Assembly (NCBI RefSeq): GCF_039851975.1
Contig: NZ_CP156660.1
Span: 1,803,035 to 1,867,034, forward strand
Length of the DNA stretch: 64,000 nucleotides
Direction of reading: 5' to 3'
Source: Desulfoscipio sp. XC116
Lineage (GTDB): Bacteria; Bacillota; Desulfotomaculia; Desulfotomaculales; Desulfallaceae
The notes below the pieces were generated by a model. That model did not search any database, was not told the DNA's origin, and saw only the letters and a program-made list of their open reading frames with translations. The position numbers and the translations under genes were made by a program. Shown here in pieces: positions 4,857 to 62,531 of the stretch. Every line of letters begins with the position of its first letter. The first letter of the stretch is position 1.

Positions 4857-4934
4857 AAAACATCCTCCACTTGCTGGAATAATGGTGTTTCTCGGTGATG
4901 TGATGTTAAAGATACCGGTGGTATTTAAGGTTAA

Positions 4935-42083: not shown

Positions 42084-42398
42084 TCATAGAATATGTCTCC
42101 AATTGCGTCTTGCATAGAGAATTCTCTCTATATCAACGATTTTTAATTTTTCGTCTATGGTGAAAAAAACAATATAATTTTTAACGAGCAACTTGTGATA
42201 TCCTAGCATGGCAAGCCGTTCATCAACTACGCAAGGGCATTTTTGCGGCATGACCACTAACCCACCGATGGCTTCTTCAATGATCTCCATCATTTTCAAT
42301 GCAGTTATGGGCGCCGCTAGTTGTGCGGAAATATATTGAACAATGTTGCGCAGGTCATTCTCAGCAGGTTCTGATACGTCAACCCTATATCTTTCCAT
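42084..42398 (-). CDS. RelE/ParE-family toxin
   Basis: A 104-residue protein of the ParE/RelE fold: MERYRVDVSEPAENDLRNIVQYI, then a central hairpin and LVKNYIVFFTIDEKLKIVDIERILYARRNW with the typical C-terminal strand and Arg residues. The family either poisons DNA gyrase (ParE) or cleaves mRNA on ribosomes (RelE); sequence alone does not decide. It overlaps the antitoxin gene by 14 bases, as in type II toxin-antitoxin operons. Confidence 0.88.
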   Translation of the reverse strand: MERYRVDVSEPAENDLRNIVQYISAQLAAPITALKMMEIIEEAIGGLVVMPQKCPCVVDERLAMLGYHKLLVKNYIVFFTIDEKLKIVDIERILYARRNWRHIL

Positions 42399-42657
42399 CA
42401 GCTATCTCCTGCCGAATGTCTTTTATGACATCTTCAAGCGGACGCTTCCTGCCCTCTATTATGGCTGCTTTTCCCTCATCAAGCAGGCGGTAAAGTTCAA
42501 GTTTGCCATTGAGCATTTCATATGTCTCAATGCTCATAACGGCCAAATCACCCCGCCCGTTTTTGGTAATATAGACAGGCTCTCTGTTTTCATGACAGAA
42601 TGTTGAAATTTCGTTATAATTATTCCTTAAATCCGTGCTGGATTTAATATTTGGCAT
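42385..42657 (-). CDS. Phd/YefM-family antitoxin
   Basis: A 90-residue antitoxin. The N-terminal Phd/YefM DNA-binding part reads IKSSTDLRNNYNEISTFCHENREPVYITKNGRGD, with a following VMSIETYEML helix; the C-terminus is a charged toxin-binding tail. GAGGAGG lies eight bases before ATG 42657. The IS66 insertion at 42685 begins only 27 bases upstream, so the native promoter (found at 45566-45594) is now 2.9 kb away. Expression must come through the IS or from a promoter in its end. Confidence 0.88.
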   Translation of the reverse strand: MPNIKSSTDLRNNYNEISTFCHENREPVYITKNGRGDLAVMSIETYEMLNGKLELYRLLDEGKAAIIEGRKRPLEDVIKDIRQEIADGKI

Positions 42658-42736
42658 AAAATCAGCCTCCTCATCTAACCTAAAGTAAGCGTCAAACCAA
42701 TTGACGCCTTGACCAATGCCGACTCGTATTAAGCGG

Positions 42737-43018
42737 TTACAGGAACCCTTCATCACTGATGTCAACGACATCCAGAAACTGCTTCCGAATGTGTCTTCGG
42801 AATGCTTCATCGCTGAGGCGCTCGCCTTTATAAACACCGTCTTCCACCAGGCGATCGTCAATCAATCTTGCAAATTCCTCGTCTTCACGGGCCATTTTTT
42901 GGTAGCGCTGTTGTACTTCATGGGGGAAATCCAGTTGGAAATCCAGACGACTTATGTTGCCTTTGAGGAACGCTTCGACCATATCGAGAACCATGTCAAT
43001 GTTACTTCGTTTTTTCAT
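42737..43018 (-). CDS. IS66 accessory protein (93 aa), copy 1
   Basis: A small charged protein encoded at the end of the IS, overlapping the tnpC stop. It begins MKKRSNIDMVLDMVEAFLKG and is helical, with a DEEFARLIDDRLVEDGVYKG segment. A GAGAGGAG site precedes its ATG. It is present in both copies of the IS, so it belongs to the element; its function in transposition is unknown to me. Confidence 0.7.
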   Translation of the reverse strand: MKKRSNIDMVLDMVEAFLKGNISRLDFQLDFPHEVQQRYQKMAREDEEFARLIDDRLVEDGVYKGERLSDEAFRRHIRKQFLDVVDISDEGFL

Positions 43019-44627
43019 GGTAACTCCTCTCGTTTAAGCCTGGCGGGACTTTGCACGTCTCCGGCGCGTTCCAGGGCAGCAGCAGCTCTAACTGTTTCGG
43101 GTCGCCGAGATCCATGTTAGGTGCCGCGTCAAAAACATAGCTCAGAAAGCGGTGGGGATCCAATCCGTTTTCCTTCGCCGTCTCAATGAGGCTGAACATG
43201 ACGGCGCTGCCTTGCGCCCCTTTCGGTGTATTGGCAAACAAAAAGTTCTTCCGGTCAATGACAAACGGTTTGATGCTGCGTTCCGCTCGGTTGTTGCTGA
43301 ACTCCAGCCGCCCGTCCAGGAGATAATTTGTTAGCCAGGACCACTGCTCCTGCAGGTAATAGATGGCTTTGCCAATCGCGGATTTCGGTGCGGTTTTATG
43401 GGCTCTCAGCCACGCCGAAAAGGCTTCAAGCATTGGTTTTGCCAGTTCCTGACGTTTCTCATAGCGTCTTTCCGTCGGGCAGGCCGCCAATTGTTTTTCA
43501 AGGTCAAACAGTGCGTCGCAATAGCGTTTTCCGCGCAGGGCTAAAGACCCCCCCCGGTCTTTTTCCGGGAGAGCTTTCAGGGCTTCATTAAATTTTCGTC
43601 GGGCATGAGCCCAGCAGCCTACCACAGTGATCGAACCCGGCAGATTGTGATAGCCGCTGTACCCGTCCGTATGCAAATATCCGGAGAAACCTTTTAGAAA
43701 CTCGGCCGGGCGGCGGGCTTTTCGATCCGGTTGGTATTCATACAGGATAATCGGCTGTCCGGTATCTCCGCTGGTCCGGTATAGCCACATGTAGCTCTTG
43801 GACTGAGCGGATTTCCCCGGCTCCCGCAGCACTTGCAGAGTGGTTTCATCACCATGCAGCACTTGCCGGGCGCAAAGCCTGCGATGCAGTTCATGGTAGA
43901 TGGGCTCCAGCCAATCTGCAGTGCTTTTCAGCACCCAGTTGGATAACGTTTGGCGCGACAGTGTTATCCCCTGGCGCTGAAAAGATTTCTCTTGCCGGTA
44001 TAGCGGGGCTCCCATGACAAATTTCTGCGTGATGATGTGCGCTACCGCCTCCGGTGAGGCAAAGCTCCCTTTGATGACGTTGTTTCTTTGGGGCGTTCTG
44101 AGCACGGGGACTTCTGTGCCGGTTTTTTCGCAGGTTCGGCAGGCGTAGGTATAATAGATATCTTCCAGGATCACCGCGCTGGCCGGAATGATTTTTAGCC
44201 TCCGCTGCACGGTCTTTCCAATAATTTGCAGTTCGTCGTTGCAGACCGGGCAGGTGCGCTCTTGATCCGGCAGAAAATGCTCGGTGGTTTCGACGGGCAG
44301 GTTCTCAGGCAGGCTGTCCTTCGTTTCCCGTCGCTTCTTGCGAACGTGGGGTTTTACATCGGTTAACTCCGGTTCCGGCACAGCTTCGTCCGCGAAGAGT
44401 TCCGCTTCATTAAATAGGTTCGGCTGCTCCCAGCCGTCATATTGGCTCTGTTCGGACGAAGACCCAAAACGTTTTTGCCGGGCCAGGCGCAGTTGCTCCA
44501 GAAACCATTCTACTTGACGTGACAATTCGGCGTTTTGGGTCTTTAGTGCAAGATATTCATTGTATTCTGTGCGCGAAATCGTCACGATTTCGGCGCTGTC
44601 TTTAACGGTTTCAGGCACGTTTTTCAT
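43002..44627 (-). CDS. tnpC: IS66 transposase TnpC, copy 1
   Basis: A 541-residue DDE transposase of the IS66 family. N-terminal leucine-zipper-like region (LALKTQNAELSRQVEWFLEQL), a zinc-finger region with CPVCN and CRTC, then the catalytic domain with GDETTLQVL, HTDGYSGYHNL and WAHARRKF, and the C-terminal SNNRAERSIKPFVIDRKNF carrying the Glu. All parts are intact, so the element should be active. Confidence 0.95.
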   Translation of the reverse strand: MKNVPETVKDSAEIVTISRTEYNEYLALKTQNAELSRQVEWFLEQLRLARQKRFGSSSEQSQYDGWEQPNLFNEAELFADEAVPEPELTDVKPHVRKKRRETKDSLPENLPVETTEHFLPDQERTCPVCNDELQIIGKTVQRRLKIIPASAVILEDIYYTYACRTCEKTGTEVPVLRTPQRNNVIKGSFASPEAVAHIITQKFVMGAPLYRQEKSFQRQGITLSRQTLSNWVLKSTADWLEPIYHELHRRLCARQVLHGDETTLQVLREPGKSAQSKSYMWLYRTSGDTGQPIILYEYQPDRKARRPAEFLKGFSGYLHTDGYSGYHNLPGSITVVGCWAHARRKFNEALKALPEKDRGGSLALRGKRYCDALFDLEKQLAACPTERRYEKRQELAKPMLEAFSAWLRAHKTAPKSAIGKAIYYLQEQWSWLTNYLLDGRLEFSNNRAERSIKPFVIDRKNFLFANTPKGAQGSAVMFSLIETAKENGLDPHRFLSYVFDAAPNMDLGDPKQLELLLPWNAPETCKVPPGLNERSYHEKTK

Positions 44628-44695
44628 GCTTGAATTATACCATATTTTGCTGCGAAAAACAATGAAAAACCCCGTATTTTCAAGGCTTCCCGGCT

Positions 44696-45049
44696 TTAAA
44701 CAATACTTAAATTATTCACCGGACGCAGGGCTTTAGGTTGGTCAATGGAGAGCCCTTCCATGAGCCAGCGGAATTGCTGTTCCGTGAGTGCCCGGACGTC
44801 TTCCGGGGTTCTCGGCCATTGGAAACGCCCGCTTTCCAACCGCTTATACAGAAGTACGAATCCGTTTCTCTCCCAGTAGAGCGCTTTAATCCGATCAGTT
44901 CGCCGGCCGCAGAACAGAAACAGACTGTCGGAGAAGGGGTCAAGCTGAAAGCGCTGCTGAACCATAGCGGCCAGCCCGTCAATACCCCGGCGCAGGTCTG
45001 TGTAGCCGCAGGCCAGATACACGTGCGCAGCGCGTGTGACATCTAACAC
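44696..45049 (-). CDS. tnpB: IS66 protein TnpB, copy 1
   Basis: The 117-residue IS66 Orf2 protein, recognisable from YLACGYTDLRRGIDGLAAMV and FLFCGRRTDRIKALYWERNGF. It is required for transposition of IS66-type elements. GTG start overlapping the tnpA stop by seven bases indicates coupled translation. It is unrelated to the IS605 TnpB nuclease. Confidence 0.94.
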   Translation of the reverse strand: MLDVTRAAHVYLACGYTDLRRGIDGLAAMVQQRFQLDPFSDSLFLFCGRRTDRIKALYWERNGFVLLYKRLESGRFQWPRTPEDVRALTEQQFRWLMEGLSIDQPKALRPVNNLSIV

Positions 45050-45417
45050 AGCGCCTTCACCGCTCTGAGGATCGTTTCCACGGTTTCTGAGTGCACACCG
45101 TTTTGAAATTCCAGTGTGACGTTACCAAAATGAAGGGTGACGACCGCCGCTGGCACGCTCTGAACCGGGGCCGGTATCCGGCACTCGGTAAATACAGCTG
45201 TTTCAGCCCGCGTCATGATCGGTTGCTGATTTGACTCTGCAAGAAGGTTTTGTGTCCCTGCGTCCCAAACCGCACGCTGCCATCGGTAATAGGTCTGCGG
45301 GGAGATATGGCGCTCTTTGCACCAGGTGCAAATTGTTTGGCCGCTGGTCCGACATTCATAGATAAGCCTGCGCCATTCCTCCACTTTAAGCTCATGTTTT
45401 ACTTTTTGCAGTTCCAT
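45043..45417 (-). CDS. tnpA: IS66 protein TnpA, copy 1
   Basis: The 124-residue IS66 Orf1, with an N-terminal helix-turn-helix (WRRLIYECRTSGQTICTWCKERHISPQTYYRW) for end binding. GCAGGAGG precedes the ATG. First gene of the IS and therefore the first to be read from the interrupted toxin-antitoxin promoter just upstream. Confidence 0.92.
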   Translation of the reverse strand: MELQKVKHELKVEEWRRLIYECRTSGQTICTWCKERHISPQTYYRWQRAVWDAGTQNLLAESNQQPIMTRAETAVFTECRIPAPVQSVPAAVVTLHFGNVTLEFQNGVHSETVETILRAVKALC

Positions 45418-45554
45418 TGTAATCCTCCTGCGAGGCAGTATTAAAAACTATTGAGAGCTCTCGCAATATCTCGCGTTCTCTCAGGATACTCTCGCTACTA
45501 TACTCTCTCACAGAAAGGGCGGGGAAGGTAGGTGTCGTTAGATTTGACGCTTAC

Positions 45555-45594: not shown

Positions 45595-45661
45595 GCCAAA
45601 CTGTATATGAAAAAGCTACATCTTCATTGGTTTACTACCAACAAAAATGTAGCTTATAACT

Positions 45662-45686
45662 TGGAAAGTTAGGTCAAAAAAGATGC
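45662..45686. repeat. 25-bp direct repeat, left copy
   Basis: The sequence starting TGGAAAGTTAGGTCAAAA is found again, identical and in the same orientation, at 56360-56384. It lies in the noncoding stretch 45595-45981, which also holds a hairpin AAGCTACAT/ATGTAGCTT (45610-45656), an inverted repeat CTATCATG/CATGATAG (about 45773-45805) and a 34-codon minus-strand fragment without a start. Confidence 0.7.
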
Positions 45687-45981: not shown

Positions 45982-46437
45982 TTATTTTCTAAAATCCTTT
46001 AATGCTCCTAATAATACTTTTTCTTTCCATTCAGGATTATTTTTTGTAATAATATCGAAATTCATAGGAATCCAAACTTGTCTTCGTTTCAAAGTGTTAC
46101 ATTTTTGGCAAGCATAAACCAGGTTATATGGCTTAGCAACACCCCTTTCATATGCAGGAATTATATGCTCAACAATACCATTGATTTTTGTTATAACCCC
46201 ACAGTATTGACAAGTGTAACAATCTCTTTCACGTATAAATTTACGAATACTTTTATTCTGAAAAATAGTTTCAGATAAGCCCCTAGTACGAAAATATATA
46301 ACGTCTGCATGTATGGCACTTTTGGAACAATTAAACTCCATAGAAAGTTGTTTCTTAATTTCAGAATAAGTTAATTCTCCTTCGTCCAGTAACAATTCAA
46401 CCTTTGATTGTCTTTCAAAAATATTTTTATGTGCCAT
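45982..46437 (-). CDS. HNH endonuclease
   Basis: A 151-residue protein. Residues 10-55 resemble a winged helix (LTYSEIKKQLSMEFNCSKSAIHADVIYF); residues 70-120 form an HNH domain with zinc Cys pairs C76/C79 (TCQYCG) and C110/C113 (CQKC), the metal-site VEHIIPAYERG (His 91) and the N of PYNLVYAC. The ribosome-binding site is weak. It is the last gene of a group with two HEPN-motif proteins; a nuclease with a DNA-binding domain next to candidate RNases suggests a defence role, which is inference. Confidence 0.82.
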   Translation of the reverse strand: MAHKNIFERQSKVELLLDEGELTYSEIKKQLSMEFNCSKSAIHADVIYFRTRGLSETIFQNKSIRKFIRERDCYTCQYCGVITKINGIVEHIIPAYERGVAKPYNLVYACQKCNTLKRRQVWIPMNFDIITKNNPEWKEKVLLGALKDFRK

Positions 46438-46470
46438 GATAATTTTCTACTAGAATCACTATAAATCTAT

Positions 46471-47028
46471 TCAAACAATGTATCGATCTATCGGTACATA
46501 ATAAGAATCTGCTTTTATTATGGCTTTGTCCAATAATTCTTTATTATTTTCAATCAGTTTAAAAAATTCATGTGTTCCATCCATAAAACTACTTACTAAA
46601 TCGCCAATATGTATAATAACAAACTTTGTTCCTTCAGATATCTTCTCAATTTCCGGTAAGCTTTGAATACTTTTATTCAGGATTTCTTTATCTCCCACTA
46701 CATAAGCAACTACTCTTGTATTATTTTGTTTTTTTGCAATAGCCGAAAAAGTGTGCAATTGACTACACCTTGCTAAATATAATTCTGTTGCTGTACACTC
46801 ATAGTCGTGTTTTTTCATCTTAGGAATAAGAAAATCATTGACCCATTTTTCATACTCTTTTTTGACTTCCCTTTTTTTTAAATCCATCTGTTCAGAATAT
46901 AGCCATGAAAGAGAATCTATAGCAGAGTAAAGCAGCCTTAAAGCAGGTTCAAAGCATTTATTATCCCCGCATAATAAAATAGCCTTTATAGTTTGAACGT
47001 ATTTTTCTGCAATCCCGTTAAAATCCAT
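46471..47028 (-). CDS. HEPN-motif protein of unknown function (candidate RNase)
   Basis: An alpha-helical protein of 185 residues. It has a helical first half with ALRLLYSAIDSLSWLY and an R-x4-H motif, RCSQLH at 87-92, set in a helix (ELYLARCSQLHTF). That arrangement is typical of HEPN ribonucleases and of HEPN-like proteins in defence islands. The C-terminal half has beta segments (RVVAYVVGD, FVIIHIGDLV). ATG 47028 is eight bases behind AGGTGG. The base composition is AT-rich compared with the core genome to the left. Confidence 0.55.
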   Translation of the reverse strand: MDFNGIAEKYVQTIKAILLCGDNKCFEPALRLLYSAIDSLSWLYSEQMDLKKREVKKEYEKWVNDFLIPKMKKHDYECTATELYLARCSQLHTFSAIAKKQNNTRVVAYVVGDKEILNKSIQSLPEIEKISEGTKFVIIHIGDLVSSFMDGTHEFFKLIENNKELLDKAIIKADSYYVPIDRYIV

Positions 47029-47062
47029 CACATTACCCACCTATCATTAAGTATTACTGAAT

Positions 47063-47611
47063 TTATCCTACTGCATATTCGTTTCTAAGCTTATTTGTAG
47101 CTATTTTAATTATTTCTTTTATATATACATTTTGTTCTTCAATTAATTGAGAAATATTAATATTTGTAAAAACAGCTTTCTCATTAGCATTTTCTGTTAT
47201 TAATTGAAATCCATATTGGGCCATTGTAATTCGTGATACAAAGGCATAAGTTATTGGTTTTGCCTTTGTTGCATTTATTTTCGTTGGGTGTCCAACAGAG
47301 TTATTTCTTATTGTTCTTATCTCTCTCAGTTTTTCATATTCCCAGATGTTTATTTTTATATTTAAAACTTCACATAAATTAACTGCCGCATCTTGTTGCA
47401 AAAATAAAGCTTGTAACAAACCGTAAATCGCTAAATACAACATTCCGTCATCTTTATAATCATTTGCTTGATAAGCATCTATGGCTAATTCCGTATCACT
47501 GATAACATCCATAGAAGTACAAAGCTGTAACCACATACTCTTATTCGTAATCAATTTTGTCTTGATTTTTGGCGTATTAACTAAGTCTCTAAACTCGTTG
47601 ATAACTGGCAT
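47063..47611 (-). CDS. second HEPN-motif protein (candidate RNase or partner)
   Basis: A helical 182-residue protein. The strongest feature is IRNNSVGHPT, an R-x5-H motif at 102-108 preceded by EYEKLREIRT, which is how many HEPN-like Abi proteins look. A helix AIYGLLQALFLQQDAAVNL comes before it. GGAGG lies nine bases before the ATG. The stop is 34 bases ahead of the first HEPN-motif gene's start on the same strand, and the HNH gene follows, so the three probably form one transcript. Confidence 0.55.
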   Translation of the reverse strand: MPVINEFRDLVNTPKIKTKLITNKSMWLQLCTSMDVISDTELAIDAYQANDYKDDGMLYLAIYGLLQALFLQQDAAVNLCEVLNIKINIWEYEKLREIRTIRNNSVGHPTKINATKAKPITYAFVSRITMAQYGFQLITENANEKAVFTNINISQLIEEQNVYIKEIIKIATNKLRNEYAVG

Positions 47612-47825: not shown

Positions 47826-48770
47826 TCACATAGAAAACTGCTGTCCCTGGTTTTCCAATCCCTCTTGCTCCGGTTCCTGTCTTTCCAACTTCATGAGTTG
47901 TTCCATACTGTAATCAAGAATTTTTACCTTTCGCTCTGAAATGATCACCGTGTAGAATTCCTTTTGTATTGGAAGCAGTGTCGGTGTTTTATTAATGAGC
48001 GCCCGTATTCTCTCCATATCAATCCGCGCAGAAACTCTTTTAAGCGCCGCCGTGCAGTCCGGATTTTTCAGAGAAGAGATAAATTCAAAGTAGGATATTT
48101 TCTTTCCGTTTTCCTCAATAGATGAAGCAGGAAAGACATAGATGCGCTTGTCGAGCTCATCTTCACTATTCAGGACAGCTTCCATATGGCTGGCAGCAAG
48201 CTGCGGGTAGAGGCAGGAGCCGCAATCGTAAACCGGAGCAATTTCAGCCGTCTTAGACTGCTCATCCACAAGAATACCCCAATTGCCATTGTGCCTGTCA
48301 AAATTGCCGAGCAGTGCATCGGCAATAAACATATCCCAGAAAAAATCCCGAAGCTGATCCTGTGGCAGAAGAGTCTGTTCGTCAATTGCCTGCTGGATGG
48401 AGGAGAGTTCCTTTCCATATCCATTCTGTTCACTACTGATACAGGTATTCTTCAGATGGGCAAACTCCATGAGTTTTTTGCCGCCCTCGGTAAAATCGCC
48501 GCAGGCTACGACTACTTTTTCTTTTCCGCGCGAATCAGTATAGGTTCCCAGCAGGGTTTCCTGGGTCCTAAATCCGAGGCAGGCAAAGATATGGCAGGCG
48601 AGGTATTCACTGATACAGCCGTTAGTGTAGCTCATTGCTTTATTACGGCTGGGAACAGGAGGAAATTTCAGCATGTAGCTGCTGCCCTTATACAAAATAT
48701 TGATTTTATTTCCGTTTGCCCCGCCGTAGGCTCTGAATTTATTTACTTCACATGAGGTAAAATCAATCAT
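47826..48770 (-). CDS. HipA/CtkA-like protein kinase
   Basis: A 314-residue kinase-like protein. It has a Gly-rich start (YGGANGNKINILYKG), a nucleotide-site Lys in YMLKFPPVP (about 35), a catalytic loop LLGNFDRHNGNWGIL (Asp about 158) and a metal-binding YDCGSCLYP (Asp about 182) in place of DFG. Length and layout fit the compact CtkA branch rather than full HipA. ATG 48770 lies nine bases behind GGAGG. The gene overlaps the XRE regulator stop by eight bases, so the pair resembles a hipBA toxin-antitoxin unit. Confidence 0.82.
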   Translation of the reverse strand: MIDFTSCEVNKFRAYGGANGNKINILYKGSSYMLKFPPVPSRNKAMSYTNGCISEYLACHIFACLGFRTQETLLGTYTDSRGKEKVVVACGDFTEGGKKLMEFAHLKNTCISSEQNGYGKELSSIQQAIDEQTLLPQDQLRDFFWDMFIADALLGNFDRHNGNWGILVDEQSKTAEIAPVYDCGSCLYPQLAASHMEAVLNSEDELDKRIYVFPASSIEENGKKISYFEFISSLKNPDCTAALKRVSARIDMERIRALINKTPTLLPIQKEFYTVIISERKVKILDYSMEQLMKLERQEPEQEGLENQGQQFSM

Positions 48771-49221
48771 AAATACCATCCTCCTTTCCGCCTAAACCAA
48801 GATATTTCTCACGCAGGTAGCCTGCCTGTTCCTCCGTAATTAAGTCTGACCAAAGGTCGGCATTAATGGCTCCATATAACTCATCCCATAGGCAGTCAAT
48901 GTGCAGCACCTGCTCCTTCTCACCTTGCAAGTATTCTTTAATTGCTTTTTGGATACTCCCGGACAATTCGGTTTCCAGATACGTTTTGCTATTCGGTTTC
49001 CCATCTGCCATGCTTTTTGTCGGCTCTGTTTCGAGTGCCAACAGTTCTTCAATGGAAAGGCCGAGTGCTTTGGACAGCTTGAAAAGCGTCCCCGCACCGC
49101 AACGATCCAGATGGGTTTTTCCAGAATAAATATCTGCAAGCGTTGCCCACGGAATTGCGCTGATTTTTGATAAACGGTAGCGGGATATCTGCATATCCTG
49201 CATAATCTGTTGTATTGTCAT
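48763..49221 (-). CDS. XRE-family regulator/antitoxin (HipB-like)
   Basis: A 152-residue protein with an N-terminal helix-turn-helix (IQQIMQDMQISRYRLSKISAIPWATLADIYSG and FKLSKALGLSIEELL) and a C-terminal acidic region. It probably represses its own operon and neutralises the kinase encoded by the overlapping gene. Three start codons are clustered; ATG 49221 fits AGGTGA best. It lies next to the end of a mobile-element gene. Confidence 0.8.
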   Translation of the reverse strand: MTIQQIMQDMQISRYRLSKISAIPWATLADIYSGKTHLDRCGAGTLFKLSKALGLSIEELLALETEPTKSMADGKPNSKTYLETELSGSIQKAIKEYLQGEKEQVLHIDCLWDELYGAINADLWSDLITEEQAGYLREKYLGLGGKEDGIYD

Positions 49222-49226
49222 TTTCA

Positions 49227-49850
49227 TCACCTATACTCATTATATCGGCATTCCGATATAACGTCAAGGTATGCCAAGATATCCGACGCTCGATCATCGC
49301 ATATAACCTCCTGCCTGATGGCGTTGCCCACTGTGGCGGCATCCGGCAGAAAATCATAGCCGTGCAGGTTTTGTGAGATATCCAGCGCAAAGTCCAAACG
49401 GTCGCAGCCTTCATACTCCATCGCCGCTTGAAATTGTTTCATGGCGTGAGGCTTTCCTTGCCATTGTTCGCCCAGAACATAGCCGAGGTTGCTGCCATCC
49501 CACACTAGATTGTCAAGTGAGTCGTCTTGCTCTAACAGGTTCTGAATGTTCGGCAGCACACAAACCGCTTCAAGTGTCCGGCACTCCTGCAGAGAGGATA
49601 CGCCCAGCGTATTGAGCACGCTCCGAAGCTCGTCAGGCCTGCCTCCGTTTACCTCTGCATAATCGGGCAGGCGGAGCCAGACGCTGTTTTTGTTTGAAGC
49701 GGACGCCAATTTCAGCTTAGCGCTGTAACCGTCATCCTTTAGCTCTAACAGATTGGCACCGTCATATACCATCTGGATGGTTTGGCCTGTCGGAAATATA
49801 TAAGCGCCGCCCATAAAACACCCAGACTCTGCCAGATACGGTAATGCCAC
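49227..49850 (-). pseudogene. mobile-element protein fragment (ArdA/YodL-like region)
   Basis: A 207-codon frame without a supported start. The second half reads QFQAAMEYEGCDRLDFALDI and then HGYDFLPD, which resembles antirestriction ArdA-like or YodL-type proteins encoded on clostridial conjugative elements. The first part (SVWLRLPDYAEVNGGRPDELR) also fits such proteins. No ribosome-binding site is found near the GTG at 49850 and the ATG at 49814 is unsupported; I consider it a relic or a misread start. It suggests that the segment came with an integrative element. Confidence 0.45.
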
Positions 49851-50279: not shown

Positions 50280-50428
50280 CCGTGGAATAAAGTAAGCGTC
50301 AAATCTAACGACACCTACCTTCCCCGCCCTTTCTGTGAGAGAGTATAGTAGCGAGAGTATCCTGAGAGAACGCGAGATATTGCGAGAGCTCTCAATAGTT
50401 TTTAATACTGCCTCGCAGGAGGATTACA

Positions 50429-50803
50429 ATGGAACTGCAAAAAGTAAAACATGAGCTTAAAGTGGAGGAATGGCGCAGGCTTATCTATGAATGTCGGACC
50501 AGCGGCCAAACAATTTGCACCTGGTGCAAAGAGCGCCATATCTCCCCGCAGACCTATTACCGATGGCAGCGTGCGGTTTGGGACGCAGGGACACAAAACC
50601 TTCTTGCAGAGTCAAATCAGCAACCGATCATGACGCGGGCTGAAACAGCTGTATTTACCGAGTGCCGGATACCGGCCCCGGTTCAGAGCGTGCCAGCGGC
50701 GGTCGTCACCCTTCATTTTGGTAACGTCACACTGGAATTTCAAAACGGTGTGCACTCAGAAACCGTGGAAACGATCCTCAGAGCGGTGAAGGCGCTGTGT
50801 TAG
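50429..50803 (+). CDS. tnpA: IS66 protein TnpA, copy 2
   Basis: Identical in protein sequence to the copy-1 product: 124 residues with the N-terminal helix-turn-helix. It follows AGGAGG and is the first gene of the second IS. Confidence 0.92.
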   Translation: MELQKVKHELKVEEWRRLIYECRTSGQTICTWCKERHISPQTYYRWQRAVWDAGTQNLLAESNQQPIMTRAETAVFTECRIPAPVQSVPAAVVTLHFGNVTLEFQNGVHSETVETILRAVKALC

Positions 50804-51150
50804 ATGTCACACGCGCTGCGCACGTGTATCTGGCCTGCGGCTACACAGACCTGCGCCGGGGTATTGACGGGCTGGCCGCTATGGTTCAGCAGCGCTTTCA
50901 GCTTGACCCCTTCTCCGACAGTCTGTTTCTGTTCTGCGGCCGGCGAACTGATCGGATTAAAGCGCTCTACTGGGAGAGAAACGGATTCGTACTTCTGTAT
51001 AAGCGGTTGGAAAGCGGGCGTTTCCAATGGCCGAGAACCCCGGAAGACGTCCGGGCACTCACGGAACAGCAATTCCGCTGGCTCATGGAAGGGCTCTCCA
51101 TTGACCAACCTAAAGCCCTGCGTCCGGTGAATAATTTAAGTATTGTTTAA
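50797..51150 (+). CDS. tnpB: IS66 protein TnpB, copy 2
   Basis: Identical 117-residue Orf2 protein. GTG start, seven-base overlap with tnpA. Confidence 0.94.
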   Translation: MLDVTRAAHVYLACGYTDLRRGIDGLAAMVQQRFQLDPFSDSLFLFCGRRTDRIKALYWERNGFVLLYKRLESGRFQWPRTPEDVRALTEQQFRWLMEGLSIDQPKALRPVNNLSIV

Positions 51151-51218
51151 AGCCGGGAAGCCTTGAAAATACGGGGTTTTTCATTGTTTTTCGCAGCAAA
51201 ATATGGTATAATTCAAGC

Positions 51219-52844
51219 ATGAAAAACGTGCCTGAAACCGTTAAAGACAGCGCCGAAATCGTGACGATTTCGCGCACAGAATACAATGAATATCTTGCAC
51301 TAAAGACCCAAAACGCCGAATTGTCACGTCAAGTAGAATGGTTTCTGGAGCAACTGCGCCTGGCCCGGCAAAAACGTTTTGGGTCTTCGTCCGAACAGAG
51401 CCAATATGACGGCTGGGAGCAGCCGAACCTATTTAATGAAGCGGAACTCTTCGCGGACGAAGCTGTGCCGGAACCGGAGTTAACCGATGTAAAACCCCAC
51501 GTTCGCAAGAAGCGACGGGAAACGAAGGACAGCCTGCCTGAGAACCTGCCCGTCGAAACCACCGAGCATTTTCTGCCGGATCAAGAGCGCACCTGCCCGG
51601 TCTGCAACGACGAACTGCAAATTATTGGAAAGACCGTGCAGCGGAGGCTAAAAATCATTCCGGCCAGCGCGGTGATCCTGGAAGATATCTATTATACCTA
51701 CGCCTGCCGAACCTGCGAAAAAACCGGCACAGAAGTCCCCGTGCTCAGAACGCCCCAAAGAAACAACGTCATCAAAGGGAGCTTTGCCTCACCGGAGGCG
51801 GTAGCGCACATCATCACGCAGAAATTTGTCATGGGAGCCCCGCTATACCGGCAAGAGAAATCTTTTCAGCGCCAGGGGATAACACTGTCGCGCCAAACGT
51901 TATCCAACTGGGTGCTGAAAAGCACTGCAGATTGGCTGGAGCCCATCTACCATGAACTGCATCGCAGGCTTTGCGCCCGGCAAGTGCTGCATGGTGATGA
52001 AACCACTCTGCAAGTGCTGCGGGAGCCGGGGAAATCCGCTCAGTCCAAGAGCTACATGTGGCTATACCGGACCAGCGGAGATACCGGACAGCCGATTATC
52101 CTGTATGAATACCAACCGGATCGAAAAGCCCGCCGCCCGGCCGAGTTTCTAAAAGGTTTCTCCGGATATTTGCATACGGACGGGTACAGCGGCTATCACA
52201 ATCTGCCGGGTTCGATCACTGTGGTAGGCTGCTGGGCTCATGCCCGACGAAAATTTAATGAAGCCCTGAAAGCTCTCCCGGAAAAAGACCGGGGGGGGTC
52301 TTTAGCCCTGCGCGGAAAACGCTATTGCGACGCACTGTTTGACCTTGAAAAACAATTGGCGGCCTGCCCGACGGAAAGACGCTATGAGAAACGTCAGGAA
52401 CTGGCAAAACCAATGCTTGAAGCCTTTTCGGCGTGGCTGAGAGCCCATAAAACCGCACCGAAATCCGCGATTGGCAAAGCCATCTATTACCTGCAGGAGC
52501 AGTGGTCCTGGCTAACAAATTATCTCCTGGACGGGCGGCTGGAGTTCAGCAACAACCGAGCGGAACGCAGCATCAAACCGTTTGTCATTGACCGGAAGAA
52601 CTTTTTGTTTGCCAATACACCGAAAGGGGCGCAAGGCAGCGCCGTCATGTTCAGCCTCATTGAGACGGCGAAGGAAAACGGATTGGATCCCCACCGCTTT
52701 CTGAGCTATGTTTTTGACGCGGCACCTAACATGGATCTCGGCGACCCGAAACAGTTAGAGCTGCTGCTGCCCTGGAACGCGCCGGAGACGTGCAAAGTCC
52801 CGCCAGGCTTAAACGAGAGGAGTTACCATGAAAAAACGAAGTAA
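51219..52844 (+). CDS. tnpC: IS66 transposase TnpC, copy 2
   Basis: Identical 541-residue transposase with intact zinc-finger and DDE regions. Since both copies are intact and unchanged, the duplication is recent. Confidence 0.95.
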   Translation: MKNVPETVKDSAEIVTISRTEYNEYLALKTQNAELSRQVEWFLEQLRLARQKRFGSSSEQSQYDGWEQPNLFNEAELFADEAVPEPELTDVKPHVRKKRRETKDSLPENLPVETTEHFLPDQERTCPVCNDELQIIGKTVQRRLKIIPASAVILEDIYYTYACRTCEKTGTEVPVLRTPQRNNVIKGSFASPEAVAHIITQKFVMGAPLYRQEKSFQRQGITLSRQTLSNWVLKSTADWLEPIYHELHRRLCARQVLHGDETTLQVLREPGKSAQSKSYMWLYRTSGDTGQPIILYEYQPDRKARRPAEFLKGFSGYLHTDGYSGYHNLPGSITVVGCWAHARRKFNEALKALPEKDRGGSLALRGKRYCDALFDLEKQLAACPTERRYEKRQELAKPMLEAFSAWLRAHKTAPKSAIGKAIYYLQEQWSWLTNYLLDGRLEFSNNRAERSIKPFVIDRKNFLFANTPKGAQGSAVMFSLIETAKENGLDPHRFLSYVFDAAPNMDLGDPKQLELLLPWNAPETCKVPPGLNERSYHEKTK

Positions 52845-53109
52845 CATTGACATGGTTCTCGATATGGTCGAAGCGTTCCTCAAAGGCAACATAAGTCGTC
52901 TGGATTTCCAACTGGATTTCCCCCATGAAGTACAACAGCGCTACCAAAAAATGGCCCGTGAAGACGAGGAATTTGCAAGATTGATTGACGATCGCCTGGT
53001 GGAAGACGGTGTTTATAAAGGCGAGCGCCTCAGCGATGAAGCATTCCGAAGACACATTCGGAAGCAGTTTCTGGATGTCGTTGACATCAGTGATGAAGGG
53101 TTCCTGTAA
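52828..53109 (+). CDS. IS66 accessory protein (93 aa), copy 2
   Basis: Identical to the small protein of copy 1. It overlaps the tnpC end by 17 bases and ends about 50 bases inside the IS terminus. Confidence 0.7.
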   Translation: MKKRSNIDMVLDMVEAFLKGNISRLDFQLDFPHEVQQRYQKMAREDEEFARLIDDRLVEDGVYKGERLSDEAFRRHIRKQFLDVVDISDEGFL

Positions 53110-53334
53110 CCGCTTAATACGAGTCGGCATTGGTCAAGGCGTCAATTGGTTTGACGCTTACCTAATAAATGCGAATACAGATAAGGAGTTTCCTTTAACC
53201 GGAACATCGGTTTCCAAACACCGGACAGCCGGTGTAATTTATTGTTACTGACGATCTGTAACGTCCAGCAATAGACGGTGTTAGTTGTCCGTGAATTGAC
53301 GGACTTAGTGCCCACCGGCCCGGGGAAGGGAGAA

Positions 53335-54135
53335 TTATAACAATTCTCCCTGGATAACCAACTTCACCATGTGATCATCAATAATCCGACGACCGTTTTG
53401 AGCTCCATAGAGCAAGCAATGGGTGCAGACTTTGTTAACAAGCCTGACTGCACCGCTGGAATACCGGAACACCTGATCAACCGCATTATCTGAAAAGATA
53501 TCGTGTTCGGCGCCGGCATAAGCCAGGTGCCGATTAATATATTCCCCGACTTGGGAACGGTCCAGGTGCGGCAGTTTACACTGCAGGTCGATCCGTTGGC
53601 GGATGGCGGCGTACGCTTGAAGCTGGAACTTATCCCACAGTTCGCTCTGACCCACCAAGATCAGGGCCATAGGACTTTGGGCATCCATTTTAAAGTTCAA
53701 CAAGAATCGTACCTCTTCCAGCATTTCTTTGTCCAAAAGATGCGCTTCGTCTACGATAACAACCGGCTGCAGTTGCTGAATACCGCGCATGAGTTCGACT
53801 TCCCGGTGCAACTGGCGCTTGGCGTCGCCGCGATAAAACTTGGCTTCACAGCCTAGCTGTTCCAATAGGCCCTTGTAGAAATGCCGGGGGGTAAGTTTGG
53901 AGTCCGCCAGATACATCACCATGAACATGGCCGGATTTAAAGAGGCCTTGAACAGGCGGATGGTGGTTGTTTTACCGGTACCGCAGTCACCGGTAACCAC
54001 GGCGAAAAGTTGCCTACGGGCGGCATATTCCAATCGGCCCAGTGTCTCATCTAGCATCAGCGATTGGTACAACTGATCCGTTGGGATGTCCCGGGAGAAC
54101 GGTGTTTTAGACAGGCCGTAGAAGGATTCAAACAT
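53335..54135 (-). CDS. TniB/ExeA-like AAA ATPase of a transposition module
   Basis: A 266-residue ATPase that starts MFESFYGLSKTPFSRDIPTD, as ExeA-type proteins do. Walker A is GDCGTGKTT, Walker B VVIVDEAHLL, and a sensor segment ILVGQSEL follows. In TniA/TniB and IS21-like systems such a protein chooses or presents the target DNA to the transposase. It overlaps the transposase gene by eight bases and is the last gene of the module. Confidence 0.88.
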   Translation of the reverse strand: MFESFYGLSKTPFSRDIPTDQLYQSLMLDETLGRLEYAARRQLFAVVTGDCGTGKTTTIRLFKASLNPAMFMVMYLADSKLTPRHFYKGLLEQLGCEAKFYRGDAKRQLHREVELMRGIQQLQPVVIVDEAHLLDKEMLEEVRFLLNFKMDAQSPMALILVGQSELWDKFQLQAYAAIRQRIDLQCKLPHLDRSQVGEYINRHLAYAGAEHDIFSDNAVDQVFRYSSGAVRLVNKVCTHCLLYGAQNGRRIIDDHMVKLVIQGELL

Positions 54136-55480
54136 GACTGTTATCCTCCTTGTTCACGGCTCTAAAAGAAATGGCTGGAGCCTGCTGCTCTTTACGCTGC
54201 TGGTTTTTCAGGGCGGCTGCAGCCAGGAGTCGCGACGATTCGGCGGGCTTGGGCTGCAGGTGTTCCGGCAGCGGGGGGCGTTTCCCGGCTCGCTGGCCGA
54301 TTACTAACTGCCTAGCTGTCCAGGGTGCGTGCCCTTCATATTCAATAGTCAGTTCAGTGATGTTAGCGGGGTCGTAGATGACTTGCACTTTACACCCGAT
54401 AAACGGCAGCCCGACTTCGTACTTATTGCCGTTAAAGCTGATGCAGCCAGCCTTGTCCACTTTCCGTTTTTCACAGTGCAAAAAGGCGTTAGCGATGGTT
54501 TGTGGATCCAAATACCTTAGTGCCTTGTTGTCACTGCGGTAGGCAGCATGCGGGCTGGCGCTACCATCTAGCCCGGAATGCGGCTTGTTGTGGTAGCACT
54601 CCTCCAGCCAGACCCAAAACAGCTCATTTAACTTGTCCAGCGATTGTGGTTTTTCCAGTTTGGCCTCGCCTAAGAAGGCGTCCACCACCCGGTTAAACCT
54701 TTCTACTTTACCGGTTGCCTCCGGAGAGTACGGTTTTGCAAATACTAGCCGGGTGCCTAATTTGCTGCAGGTGCGATGCATCCATTTAGTGCGATACTGG
54801 CTACCGTTGTCGAAATATACCGCTTCGGGAACTCCGTATTTGTGAATCGCTTTACGGAAGCAATCTTCTACAATGACCTGATCCAGCGTCGGGTAGAACT
54901 CGCCGTGCAGCACAAAGCGGGTGGCATCGTCGATGAAGGTGACCAGGTAGACCTGCTTTTTAGCGCCATCCTTGCCGATTGGCAGGTAGGGGCCGTATTT
55001 GATGTCGGAATGTACGAGCTGGTTGCGGTGCTTCTTTTGGAATCGCCGAGCCGCCACGCCGCTGTCGGAGTACATGCGCATCTGTCTTGTGCTGTAGCCT
55101 TTCTCGGCCAACTTCTCCTGCAGGGTGCTGCGTTTAATCCGCCCTTCCTGGATCAGCCCTTCCCATTCCATAATCTGAATGATCTGAGCGATGCTGCGAC
55201 CGGGCACCTCACGACGCAACAGGATGGCCTGAGTTAGGATATTTGATGGTATAGCTTCTTCGGTTTGCCGGCCTTTGCCTTTAGGTTTTAGTCCCCTAAA
55301 GCCGACTGCCCGGTACTGGGCCAGGTATCTGCGCAGCGTACGCTCGGATAGTCCGGTCTGCTGGCAGATATCTTTCTTAATTTCCCTGATTTTGGCCGCA
55401 TCAAGCCCGTCCGCTAGCAGCGGGGATAGTAGTTGCATCCGCTGAGCGGCAATCTCTTCGGCCTTTTGTTGGTCTTTCAT
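54128..55480 (-). CDS. DDE integrase-type transposase (TniA/Mu-like)
   Basis: A 450-residue transposase. The N-terminal helix-turn-helix part (QQTGLSERTLRRYLAQY) is followed by an RNase H-like rve domain with the three catalytic acids in HSDIKYGPY, YFDNGSQY and GKVERFNR, and by a Mu-type beta-barrel (ISFNGNKYEVGLPFIGCKVQV). It should cut and join element ends together with the adjacent ATPase. No disruption is visible. Terminal repeats of the element could not be identified with confidence. Confidence 0.92.
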   Translation of the reverse strand: MKDQQKAEEIAAQRMQLLSPLLADGLDAAKIREIKKDICQQTGLSERTLRRYLAQYRAVGFRGLKPKGKGRQTEEAIPSNILTQAILLRREVPGRSIAQIIQIMEWEGLIQEGRIKRSTLQEKLAEKGYSTRQMRMYSDSGVAARRFQKKHRNQLVHSDIKYGPYLPIGKDGAKKQVYLVTFIDDATRFVLHGEFYPTLDQVIVEDCFRKAIHKYGVPEAVYFDNGSQYRTKWMHRTCSKLGTRLVFAKPYSPEATGKVERFNRVVDAFLGEAKLEKPQSLDKLNELFWVWLEECYHNKPHSGLDGSASPHAAYRSDNKALRYLDPQTIANAFLHCEKRKVDKAGCISFNGNKYEVGLPFIGCKVQVIYDPANITELTIEYEGHAPWTARQLVIGQRAGKRPPLPEHLQPKPAESSRLLAAAALKNQQRKEQQAPAISFRAVNKEDNSHV

Positions 55481-55529
55481 GCTAAAACCCCCTAATTTTT
55501 AGGCTTAGCATGAGTTTATATCCTGACCG

Positions 55530-56051
55530 TCAGGACGGGAATGCAGAACGGGTATGTACCCAACAATTTGTGTTTGCCACTGATCGGACAACTCTGGCCA
55601 GCCAGCCGGTGGCGTTGCCAACATAGTCCCAAATCCTTGTGAGCGCAGACTGGGAAAGACAGGACGATTCTTTCACAGATTGGTTACCGAGTAAGGTAGC
55701 GATGGAGGCCAGGCAACCCAGGAAGTGATAATACATTTCACTAAACCAACTGCGCCAACGGCCTAATGTGGATTCGTCAGCGGTGACGGTCAGTGCGGTG
55801 TCTCCGGCTATGACCGCCTCAATGCTTTTTCTGCTGTGGCGTTTGTACGGGACGAGTATATCCGGAAGTTCGTGATGGATCCGACGGCAGTGTTCACAAC
55901 GGAGCCGGCGAATGATGAGCACGATCTGATCGCCAAGGCCATTTATGTACTTGCGTTGCCGGCTGCCGATGACATCCAGTGGCCCGTTACAACAGGGACA
56001 GGGAATCTGCTCCGCGCTCTTTACAAAAAACACTTTTTTCAAGGTTTTCAA
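55530..56051 (-). CDS. DUF6431-type zinc-ribbon protein of the transposition module
   Basis: A 173-residue protein with an N-terminal zinc ribbon (CPCCNGPLDVIG and CEHC), an HHELPDILVPYKRHS segment and a helical C-terminus. This combination is often found next to ExeA/transposase pairs in Desulfotomaculum-like genomes. It may help recognise element ends, but no function is established. The stop lies 49 bases before the transposase start. Confidence 0.7.
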   Translation of the reverse strand: MKTLKKVFFVKSAEQIPCPCCNGPLDVIGSRQRKYINGLGDQIVLIIRRLRCEHCRRIHHELPDILVPYKRHSRKSIEAVIAGDTALTVTADESTLGRWRSWFSEMYYHFLGCLASIATLLGNQSVKESSCLSQSALTRIWDYVGNATGWLARVVRSVANTNCWVHTRSAFPS

Positions 56052-56646: not shown

Positions 56647-57603
56647 TTAAGAACATTGAGCGAATTCTTTTATGTAGTACATATATGTACGTTCAATAAA
56701 CTCGTTTAAAGAACAGGGCGTTTTTGAACGGGGGCCAAGATCCTGTATAGCATACTTCTCGCTTAATTCCCTGTATCCGGTGATAGGCTTGTCCATACTG
56801 GGAATAATTTCATTGCAAGTACAGCAAAACGAATTTATGAATTTAATAAAATACCACATAAGGTATTTACCTCTGACATACTTATAACCTTTATTTTTCT
56901 CAGAAAAATCCTCTTGTATTTCTTTAATACATAGCTCGTCATAATCGTAACACCATTTTGTTTTAATGTATCTCTTAATGGCCTCTAATGATTTTACATC
57001 CACTATGCATTTGTTAACTCGAATTATTTCACTAATATCTATATCTCCAAGACTGGGGGTTAATCCCTTTTTTCTTAAAAACAAATAGTAGCATGTTATT
57101 ATTTCTGCTACATATGCTATCTTTTGAATCCCCTGTTCAAAAAATTTAACAACAATGTCAAACTCATAATCAACAAGATGAATATTAAACAATTCTATCA
57201 ATGCTCTTTTGAGCGTATGTACTGTAACAATATTATTTTCTATTGAATACTCATCGGTAATGTACAGGTTATCATTTTGAGGTAAGTCATCTAGAAAATC
57301 GCTTAAATCTCGATCAACAAAAAAAGTAGTTTGTTTTGGCGAGAATCTGTTCCAGTCAATTATGTTCAGCAGTCGCAAAACTCGATTTTTATTTCCTTTG
57401 GGATGTCCAGCTTCAATCAGAATAACTTCCCACTCATCATTGCGAATTTGTGAGATAATTCGACCTTGATAATATGAGGGGTCATCTTTCCCTTCCACAA
57501 ATCCATATAATCTTTTTTTAGATTTTGACTGGGACATTAAAAAAGTGTGGTATGGTACGATTACTTCTTCTAAGGCTGAACGTTGAATTTCCAACATAGA
57601 CAT
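56647..57603 (-). CDS. DUF4435/TOPRIM-like effector (AriB-like, PARIS type)
   Basis: A 318-residue protein with the DUF4435 pattern: FVEGKDDPSYY (Glu about 37) and FFVDRDLSDFL (Asp 97 and 99), the acidic residues of a TOPRIM-like metal site. The rest is helical with a Cys-rich stretch near the C-terminus (NSFCCTCNE). In PARIS, AriB of this family is the toxic nuclease held by the AriA ATPase until a phage anti-restriction protein is sensed. The start lies four bases after the AAA ATPase stop, so the two are made together. Last gene of the operon. Confidence 0.8.
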   Translation of the reverse strand: MSMLEIQRSALEEVIVPYHTFLMSQSKSKKRLYGFVEGKDDPSYYQGRIISQIRNDEWEVILIEAGHPKGNKNRVLRLLNIIDWNRFSPKQTTFFVDRDLSDFLDDLPQNDNLYITDEYSIENNIVTVHTLKRALIELFNIHLVDYEFDIVVKFFEQGIQKIAYVAEIITCYYLFLRKKGLTPSLGDIDISEIIRVNKCIVDVKSLEAIKRYIKTKWCYDYDELCIKEIQEDFSEKNKGYKYVRGKYLMWYFIKFINSFCCTCNEIIPSMDKPITGYRELSEKYAIQDLGPRSKTPCSLNEFIERTYMYYIKEFAQCS

Positions 57604-57607
57604 GACT

Positions 57608-58999
57608 TTATTCAACCTCCTCAATACATTCAGCTAAACTATGAGTATACTCTAATAGATCATTATCATAAATAAATGGAGAATGAGTTGCTGCAATTAA
57701 TCCCATGCATAATGCACTTTTTCTTATATCCTTCAAAAAATGTTTTTGCCAGAGAACCGATAGAGACAACTCGGGTTCGTCGATAATAACGAAGAAATTC
57801 TTATGTTCTGCTAAAAATAAATGGCTGAATAACGAGACTATTTGCTTTTCACCTGAGGATAAATCGCTCATGTCTATCGGGTCACATTTATGACTGCGTT
57901 CTTTTAAAACCTGTACCTTAAATGTTGATATATCATAGCAAACTTTTTTGTCTGAAGACTCAAAATAATTATTACACATATTACAAAAATTAATAATGCT
58001 CTGTTCCTTATTCTCTAAATCACTTTGCAGCAATAACAAATTTTTGAAATAATACAGTAAAATTTGACTATGGGTATCTTCTGAATTAAAGTCACCCTTA
58101 GATATAATCTTAATCAAAGTACTTACTTGTTTTTCCGAAAGCATTTCCTTACTATTTCTTGAAAGGCAAAGCTCGAATTTCTTAATATCGGCCTCAGTGA
58201 TAGAATCAGTAGTATAGTTGGAGGAGAGATATTTTTTATCTATTACATCTCCAAGATTCATATATGCCAAATCCTTAAATCTGCTTTCTGAAAACCTACT
58301 CAATTCCGAGCATCTTTTCTCTATTTTATCCTTGACATCCTGCATTCCAAATTCAACTAGCTCAATATAACTATTGGATTCAATGTCACTATATTCTTCG
58401 TATAAATATCTTTTTTCGTTTCCCTCTTTTGTAAATGAGTATCTACCCTTTATTACATGAGGTAAGTCTTCTTCAATTCTTCTATAAGTCGGCAAATATA
58501 ATACTCTAGCATCTAATGCTTCCGGAATCTTTGTTAATAATTCTTGCTTTTCATCAAACAGACTTGCCTGCTCTGTTTGTAATTGCCTGTTTAACCGATC
58601 AAGAATTTTTTCAGCAGGATATCCAATTCTTTGGCAAGCATAAATAATATCTTGCTTTGTGACAATAGAGCGATTTGCCTTTAAATCCATCAATTCATGC
58701 CTTATTGGTGGCGGTAAAACTCTAATAATTTGAGAATTGAATTCAATATTATCATTCGTGTGTACTTCGTCGTATGACAACTCGTAATCTCTATTATCAA
58801 TAGTAACAATTATCTTTTCAAACTCATGGGGTGGTAACTGAAAATAGGCTCCTGACAAAACAGTAAACATATATTTAAGCAGTGTTGTTTTGCCAAGTCC
58901 ATTTTCACCTACAAAAATGAAAGTATTATCTTTTATGGGGATATCAATATTTCTAAAGCCATATAATCCAATGAGCTGAAACCTATTTAAAGTACTCAT
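57608..58999 (-). CDS. AAA/ABC-type ATPase (AriA-like, PARIS type)
   Basis: A 463-residue ATPase of the AAA_15/OLD-like ABC class. Walker A is GENGLGKTT (31-39), an ABC-like signature DLSSGEKQIVSL occurs near 378, Walker B is VIIDEPELSLS near 405, and a final His-containing AATHSPFIYDND follows. The middle is a long insertion of mixed helices. Its direct coupling to a DUF4435 gene is the defining arrangement of PARIS AriA/AriB. A GGGGAG site precedes the ATG. It follows the Rad50-like gene by 38 bases, so it belongs to the longer operon. Confidence 0.82.
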   Translation of the reverse strand: MSTLNRFQLIGLYGFRNIDIPIKDNTFIFVGENGLGKTTLLKYMFTVLSGAYFQLPPHEFEKIIVTIDNRDYELSYDEVHTNDNIEFNSQIIRVLPPPIRHELMDLKANRSIVTKQDIIYACQRIGYPAEKILDRLNRQLQTEQASLFDEKQELLTKIPEALDARVLYLPTYRRIEEDLPHVIKGRYSFTKEGNEKRYLYEEYSDIESNSYIELVEFGMQDVKDKIEKRCSELSRFSESRFKDLAYMNLGDVIDKKYLSSNYTTDSITEADIKKFELCLSRNSKEMLSEKQVSTLIKIISKGDFNSEDTHSQILLYYFKNLLLLQSDLENKEQSIINFCNMCNNYFESSDKKVCYDISTFKVQVLKERSHKCDPIDMSDLSSGEKQIVSLFSHLFLAEHKNFFVIIDEPELSLSVLWQKHFLKDIRKSALCMGLIAATHSPFIYDNDLLEYTHSLAECIEEVE

Positions 59000-61083: not shown

Positions 61084-61555
61084 CAGAATACCTCCATGAC
61101 GACATTAAGTCTTTAATTTTTCCCTCTGTTAGCTTGTTTGACAGTTCATTTAATTGTAATTTTTCTCTTGCCATCAAATCATATTCTTTATCGATTTCGG
61201 AAACAAAATTTTTCCCTTTATCAGTAATCCGATAAAGGCCATTAACTTGCTGTAGGAACATACCATCTGCCAAACCATAGTTTAAGGCTCTATTTACAGC
61301 TGGGTCAAATCTGATAGGAGTATTTTCATGAATTCTATCATTCACATAATCAATGAGTTTTTGCATTTCACTTCTGGACATCAAAGCTAAAGAAATCATA
61401 TGTAGTTTAAGAACTGAACAACCGCCGCGTCCACATGATCGTGCTAAAATAAGGCATAATTGTGCAACCTTATAACTTATCCTATAGTTATAAGGTACCG
61501 CTTCAGGCCGTTCGGTAAACAAAATCTCATTGGCTTCAACAAATAACATATTCAT
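61067..61555 (-). CDS. middle component of an ABC-three-component-type system
   Basis: A 162-residue helical protein. Its layout (YNYRISYKVAQLCLILARSCGRGGCSVLKLHMI, then SRSEMQKLIDYV and a winged-helix-like FDPAVNRALNYGLADGMF and LYRITDKGKNFV) is that of the small middle proteins that lie between effector and SMC-like ATPase in ABC-3C systems. No enzymatic motif is visible. AGGTGA precedes the ATG, and the gene is bracketed tightly by its neighbours. Confidence 0.7.
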   Translation of the reverse strand: MNMLFVEANEILFTERPEAVPYNYRISYKVAQLCLILARSCGRGGCSVLKLHMISLALMSRSEMQKLIDYVNDRIHENTPIRFDPAVNRALNYGLADGMFLQQVNGLYRITDKGKNFVSEIDKEYDLMAREKLQLNELSNKLTEGKIKDLMSSWRYSDVANK

Positions 61556-62525: not shown

Positions 62526-62531
62526 TTCCAA

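Follow-up and report, generated by a model that had tools for sequence, protein, structure and literature searches.

Three adjacent genes lie on the minus strand of the window, the 64,000-nucleotide stretch of Desulfoscipio sp. XC116 DNA that was analyzed here. In order of transcription they encode a 182 aa protein with a predicted HEPN domain (P3, 47611..47063), a 189 aa HEPN-like protein with an R-x4-H motif (P2, 47040..46471) and a 151 aa HNH endonuclease with a possible N-terminal helix-turn-helix (46437..45982). The ORF calls agree with a first-pass annotation of this DNA on the coordinates and common strand of the genes, and the two motifs that it reported are present, RCSQLH at residues 91–96 of P2 and RNNSVGH at residues 102–108 of P3 (R102-N-x4-H108). 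The intergenic gaps are 22 bp (P3–P2) and 33 bp (P2–HNH), and the GC contents are 0.295, 0.312 and 0.303, respectively, versus 0.45 for the window. P3 has a GGAGG ribosome-binding site ahead of its ATG. For P2, the ATG at 47028, four codons downstream of the ORF start, has by eye the better ribosome-binding site (AGGTGG) and is probably the true start. Given the tight spacing and uniform composition, the three genes are likely co-transcribed. A pattern scan placed a terminator-like hairpin of 19 pairs, followed by a T-rich tail, at 45613..45655 on the minus strand, some 330 bp past the end of the HNH gene. Three terminator-like sites were found versus 1.0 expected in shuffles, which is not evidence of function, and the 17 promoter-like sites (11.9 in shuffles, sd 3.5) are a weak hint. 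The hairpin stretch (45605-45665) has an 87% identical copy at G000:C1:3283808-3283869.

As had been noted from the sequence at first pass, the genes lie between insertion sequence copies. These belong to the IS66 family: the left copy is at 42685..45554 on the minus strand (TnpB_IS66, 1.5e-42), and the right copy is inverted, at 50292..53161 on the plus strand, and 100% identical to the left over 2870 bp. Outside the window, the genome has two further sites with the IS66 end sequence. Within the flanked interval, upstream of P3 and also on the minus strand, are a HipA-like kinase (47826..48779; PF07804, 3.9e-9; PADLOC PDC-M03A, 3e-28) and a Cro/C1-type HTH gene that overlaps it (48763..49230; PF13443, 2.8e-10). 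The HipA-like gene has a GC content of 0.45 and is therefore probably of a different origin from the three-gene run, the composition of which (0.295–0.312) resembles that of the PARIS-like and Lamassu genes of the window (0.32–0.34). Together with a 207 aa protein that has no convincing family match, the kinase (PDC-M03A is a PADLOC candidate) and the HTH gene occupy 47826-49850, with overlapping reading frames and GC contents of 0.45–0.52.

The PARIS-like and Lamassu genes are 9–15 kb from the three-gene run, all on the minus strand. They comprise AriB (56647-57624; PADLOC, 1.2e-19) and AriA (57608-58999; PADLOC, 1.6e-29), with DUF4435 and AAA_15/AAA_21 as the Pfam families of the pair (56647..58999), and LmuB (59038-61083; PADLOC, 3.4e-98), LmuC (61067-61555; PADLOC, 2.1e-26) and LmuA (61566-62531; PADLOC, 3.8e-29). 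Judged by its gene content, the window is an ordinary defence island. The defence setting has independent support from these genes and from the restriction genes beside P3 relatives that are described below. Two further groups of genes on the minus strand are a three-gene transposon core (53335-56051), consisting of an AAA_22/TnsC-like ATPase, an rve/Mu-C transposase and a DUF6431 gene, and a Phd/YefM antitoxin (PF02604, 1.3e-10) with a small downstream ORF that by eye resembles RelE/ParE toxins (42084-42861).

The presence of R-x4-6-H motifs is by itself not beyond chance. Of the 56 non-overlapping ORFs in the window that reach 120 aa, 21 contain the pattern, and in 5000 shuffles it arose in 28% of cases for P2 and 9% for P3. 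The motifs exceed chance by their conservation across relatives. As a single sequence, P3 retrieved almost nothing in a first scan of genome contigs, in viral contigs or in phages. An alignment was seeded with a Marinobacter plasmid match (38% identity) and a weak match in genome G201. The P3 profile identified 26 loci from genome contigs (gammaproteobacteria, Fibrobacter, Patescibacteria and others) and had no match in viral contigs. In the resulting 28-row alignment (A3), which includes window P3 and leaves out locus L030, where the P3 relative is split into two ORFs, the relatives are 21–43% identical to window P3. H108, G107 and R99 are each kept in all 28 rows, and R102 and D74 each in 27. 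The motif spacing is R-x5-H, and the residue after R is N in 26 rows, H in one and R in one.

With the own genome counted, P3 turned up in one genome out of 113 in the class and in two out of 398 in the phylum. Neither P3 nor P2 is named as HEPN by Pfam, PADLOC or NCBIfam, and the P3 family matches none of the curated HEPN models above cut-off. The AbiU2 model (HEPN_AbiU2, PF18734) weakly matches two of the 28 members at E up to 1. The better match, at residues 92-136 of the relative in L026, has an E-value of 0.003 and 17.5 bits versus a cut-off of 26.8, and window P3 has no match. Searches of PDB sequences gave no match for P3 and only chance matches for profiles A3, A4 and A8 (the latter two of P2), and a comparison of A3 with A4 by hhalign indicated no relation between P3 and P2. 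No description of either family was found in the open-licence literature.

An AlphaFold2 model of P3, built with 26 sequences, has a mean pLDDT of 91.4 and a pTM of 0.86. In this model R102 and N103 end the helix formed by residues 93-105, H108 is in the loop that starts at 106, and three strands lie between the motif and the last helix. D74 falls in the long helix 55-82 that precedes the motif helix, and which we read as HEPN helix 2. The model agrees with the account of the HEPN superfamily in Anantharaman et al. (2013; PMC3710099), which places the motif at the end of helix 3, with N, D or H after R, and the acidic residue, when present, in helix 2. When the model was searched with VIA-align, 7 of the first 14 rows were HEPN or HepT chains (2hsb, 5yep, 6m6u, 8xdj, 8yuf, 8xeh and 3o10; Z 6.4–6.9), but the tool cautions that for helical bundles Z values below about 13 may reflect just a common arrangement, and the absence of a family from the list was not taken as exclusion. 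Because helical bundles of no known relation reach similar or better scores (Z up to 8.1), and because Foldseek returned no match at E 0.001 or better, the structural search supports the HEPN assignment without proving it. Based on the conservation of the family, the position of the motif in a confident model and the HEPN structural neighbours, P3 very probably constitutes an active HEPN ribonuclease domain, in agreement with the first-pass reading of this protein. The family as a whole is well supported, by alignment and model, as a convincing HEPN-type family that is uncatalogued in the curated libraries searched.

Full-length relatives of P3 are about 316 aa long and have two domains. Of the 28 aligned rows, 23 continue for 141–153 residues past residue 165. 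The five without the C-terminal half are window P3, which matches profile positions 14-186 of 316, two relatives at contig ends (L014 and L025), one that is interrupted (L028) and one that is short (L048). A six-frame search near window P3 found no remnant of the C-terminal domain. By alignment, then, window P3 is the HEPN half of a two-domain family, and the loss of the other half could mean that the protein is damaged or unregulated. The C-terminal domain also distinguishes the full-length relatives from known HEPN superfamily RNases. In the relative at L009 (6950-7891), residues 206-307 match only phrog_36524 (4.7e-15), a 116-position phage family of unknown function.

At five or more loci, P3 relatives adjoin genes of restriction systems or of Shedu. 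This count is no unbiased rate, since the neighbours were picked by eye (Pfam was run on 10 proteins from five loci). In Fibrobacter, one relative is inside a type I R-M operon with HsdR, specificity and HsdM genes (L029, 6980-7921), and another is in such an operon as judged by gene clusters common to both loci (L024, 1603-2544). Elsewhere, an Eco57I-like enzyme ends 3 bp upstream of the P3 relative (L011), an EcoRI methylase overlaps it by one base (L025), and in L031 it adjoins a ResIII helicase and the SduA_C gene of Shedu. Many other relatives are in neighbourhoods that look ordinary by eye, with for example nuo-like or ftsZ-like genes. Directly upstream of the relatives in L024 and L029 are related 318 aa genes, with no Pfam family in the L029 copy, which was scanned. 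In L003, a SIR2_2 protein is encoded a few genes from the P3 relative.

According to section 10 of PMC3710099, the HEPN RNases of R-M loci form a second line, kept inactive and set free once the DNA arm is overwhelmed. By analogy, the P3 family fits this pattern. Like the HEPN RNases of R-M operons, for which PrrC-type coupling is the example, P3 has R-x4-6-H with N after R, and its model places the motif at the end of helix 3 and an acidic residue in helix 2; the family is also alike in its setting beside R-M genes. It differs from PrrC-type HEPN proteins in having no fused ABC-ATPase or other known sensor domain. HepT chains are among the structural neighbours of P3. In HEPN–MNT (HepT–MntA) systems the partner is a nucleotidyltransferase, whereas a Pfam scan found no nucleotidyltransferase family in eight window proteins, among them those of both downstream and the three upstream genes.

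P2 belongs to a more diverged family. The window protein matches phrog_12390 (2.8e-8) and phrog_18591 (9.9e-5), both of unknown function, and as a single sequence it found almost nothing in viral contigs or plasmids and only chance matches in the PDB. Its relatives include an Acinetobacter phage protein, 16 viral contigs that form two groups of near copies, a further viral contig (L080), an acidobacterial genome (L078), a genome from the phylum of the window, where the setting is prophage-like (L096/L097), a plasmid protein from Pseudomonas (L070; profile E-value 3.2e-13) and L099. P2 turned up in one genome out of 113 in the class, in one out of 398 in the phylum and, with another profile, in two out of 299; in the class to which G503 belongs, it was present in one genome out of 185. 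In the A8 alignment, from which redundant Acinetobacter phage copies were omitted, R91 and H96 are present in all six rows at 19–24% identity to window P2, and R-x4-H is also kept in L070 and L099. An acidic residue at D42, in the preceding helix, is present in five of the six rows.

Whether P2 is an RNase is less clear than for P3. It may instead be a small phage-associated helical protein in which R-x4-H serves binding or structure, an alternative that we consider possible but somewhat doubtful. Consistent with it, relatives lie in phage late-gene regions (Acinetobacter phage R3177, L080 and L097), and the residue after R is C in four of the six aligned sequences, window P2 included. Fold support for a HEPN assignment is absent: because the P2 model is poor (pLDDT 53.9), the VIA-align search was uninformative, and a HepT-like profile matched P2 relatives weakly (best 0.096). 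Against this alternative are the invariance of R91 and H96 at such low identity, the conserved acidic residue, and the N after R, which two of the six rows have and which is seen in the phage and L070 members. On our best reading, P2 probably represents a diverged HEPN-like family of phages, prophages and a plasmid. The earlier assignment of P2 to HEPN is plausible. The phage relative belongs to phrog_12390 (1.5e-120), and its late-gene region contains neither P3 nor the HNH protein of the window.

The product of the third gene is, by its family matches, a generic HNH DNase. It matches PF01844 at 4.8e-7 (30.3 bits versus a cut-off of 21.4) and PHROG HNH families at up to 1.1e-12. It had been described as a winged helix-turn-helix fused to HNH; the HNH part is confirmed, and for the N-terminus there are sub-threshold matches only (HTH_Mga, 0.027; DUF2551, 0.049). 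A single-sequence search of plasmids returned almost nothing. Matches occur in 25 of 299 genomes of the phylum (own genome counted), but nearly all cover the HNH core only and so say little about partnership. The similarity to Septu PtuB and PDC-M01B of PADLOC reaches 9.3e-9, over the HNH core only. Unlike Septu (PtuAB), the three-gene run has no PtuA-type ATPase, and P2 and P3 match no ATPase family.

The first-pass annotation had put the three genes forward as a system and suggested a gene-neighbourhood search. Within 28 P3-homologue loci, phmmer (E up to 10) linked none of the ORFs to P2 or the HNH protein, and the P2 profile has no match in these loci at E below 1. The loci span 6.5–17 kb each, several ended by contig ends; the count includes L030 and omits L004, which is the same place as L048, and L001 and L002, which are the place of the window itself. 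A P2 relative is present in just one of the 24 genomes that carry P3, and the two are never neighbours: in that genome the P2 relative is on a 29,167-base contig and the split P3 relative on a 59,032-base contig. A generic HNH protein beside a P3 relative could escape the search, and by eye L003 encodes an HNH-like protein at 4556-5233. A conserved three-gene system is not supported by these results, and the trio is a single case. Since the searches did not find the three genes together elsewhere, the run has the look of chance neighbours or of a single local combination, and not of a new system that is established.

Our preferred reading, which we hold to be reasonably probable, is that the run is mobile defence-island cargo. 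It would comprise a HEPN metal-independent RNase domain present as the HEPN half alone (P3), probably a second HEPN-like RNase (P2) and a generic HNH DNase. This is cargo of a known kind, HEPN RNase effectors beside a DNase, and possibly a locally assembled unit. A genuine three-gene, or P3–P2 two-gene, defence unit seems unlikely. Such a unit could use P2 in place of the lost C-terminal domain of P3, with the HEPN pair forming a mixed dimer with a composite active site, and the HNH protein would bind or cut invading DNA and hold or release the RNase. The common strand, short gaps and matching GC favour a unit, as does the position of P2, which starts at the point that the C-terminal domain takes up in other P3 proteins. 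There is also precedent in PMC3710099 for a HEPN pair or a HEPN gene beside HNH: Table 1 lists the HEPN gene Bxe_C0808 in an operon with AbiU2, and Abi2-type HEPN genes are accompanied by a protein that combines ParB with an HNH DNase domain. In three of seven distinct settings of the P2 family that were inspected by eye, a further gene of HEPN or HEPN-like type is nearby (P3 here, a plasmid 'Abi family protein' with RNLRNRVFHH in L070, and a RHLLMH protein in L080). That count is small and was picked by eye, however, and accessory regions are rich in such genes; the lack of co-occurrence in P3 loci and genomes weighs further against a unit. In its most specific form, P3 and P2 would be a mixed RNase of two unrelated HEPN families, with a phage-derived P2 replacing the P3 C-terminal domain and the HNH protein as a DNA-sensing or DNA-cutting arm, and this we think very unlikely. 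If true, P2-family proteins would be general partners of HEPN RNases, which would explain the HEPN or HEPN-like gene in three of the seven settings. The L080 protein (3292-3939) is encoded in a phage region about 1 kb upstream of the P2 relative; it carries RHLLMHPK, is HEPN-like by eye, and has no match in the PDB or in phages.

It is quite unlikely that the genes are unrelated cargo joined by transposition, with no joint function and P3 a truncated remnant. The length of P3 (182 aa, versus a C-terminal half present in most relatives), the two identical IS66 copies, which point to recent rearrangement, and the mixed GC of the interval between them are in line with this explanation. On the other hand, the HEPN core of P3 is intact in a high-confidence model and ends cleanly at the domain border, the three AT-rich genes have stayed tightly spaced, and the ORFs are open, P3 with a good ribosome-binding site.

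Returning to the reading of the run as HEPN effectors beside a DNase, the analysis shows the sequences, the conserved motifs, the predicted fold of P3 and a setting rich in defence genes, and from there we infer the RNase activity, its trigger and any coupling among the three genes. The likeliest mode of action, on the pattern of PrrC next to PrrI and of the HEPN genes found within R-M operons, is a back-up that would be set off once the DNA-targeting arm breaks down or the cell senses infection. One or both HEPN proteins would then cut host or phage RNA, and growth would stop. P3 retains only its HEPN half, and P2 or the HNH protein may control it, or control may be absent.

The analysis adds a well-supported HEPN family of about 316 aa and two domains, whose members range from gammaproteobacteria to Fibrobacter and Patescibacteria and in several cases lie beside restriction genes, and a probable phage-linked HEPN-like family in P2; the curated libraries searched name neither. 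Both families are candidates for roles in toxicity and phage defence. If P2 and P3 act as a pair, this would be a case of RNase effectors rebuilt by domain swapping with phage genes. HEPN domains also occur in four validated systems of the DefensePredictor study, as given in excerpts of PMC13092281, which describe a single-protein CBS–HEPN system. An integron entry in the excerpted part of PMC3710099 gave us the idea that the marine P3 relatives might have an integron-cassette origin.
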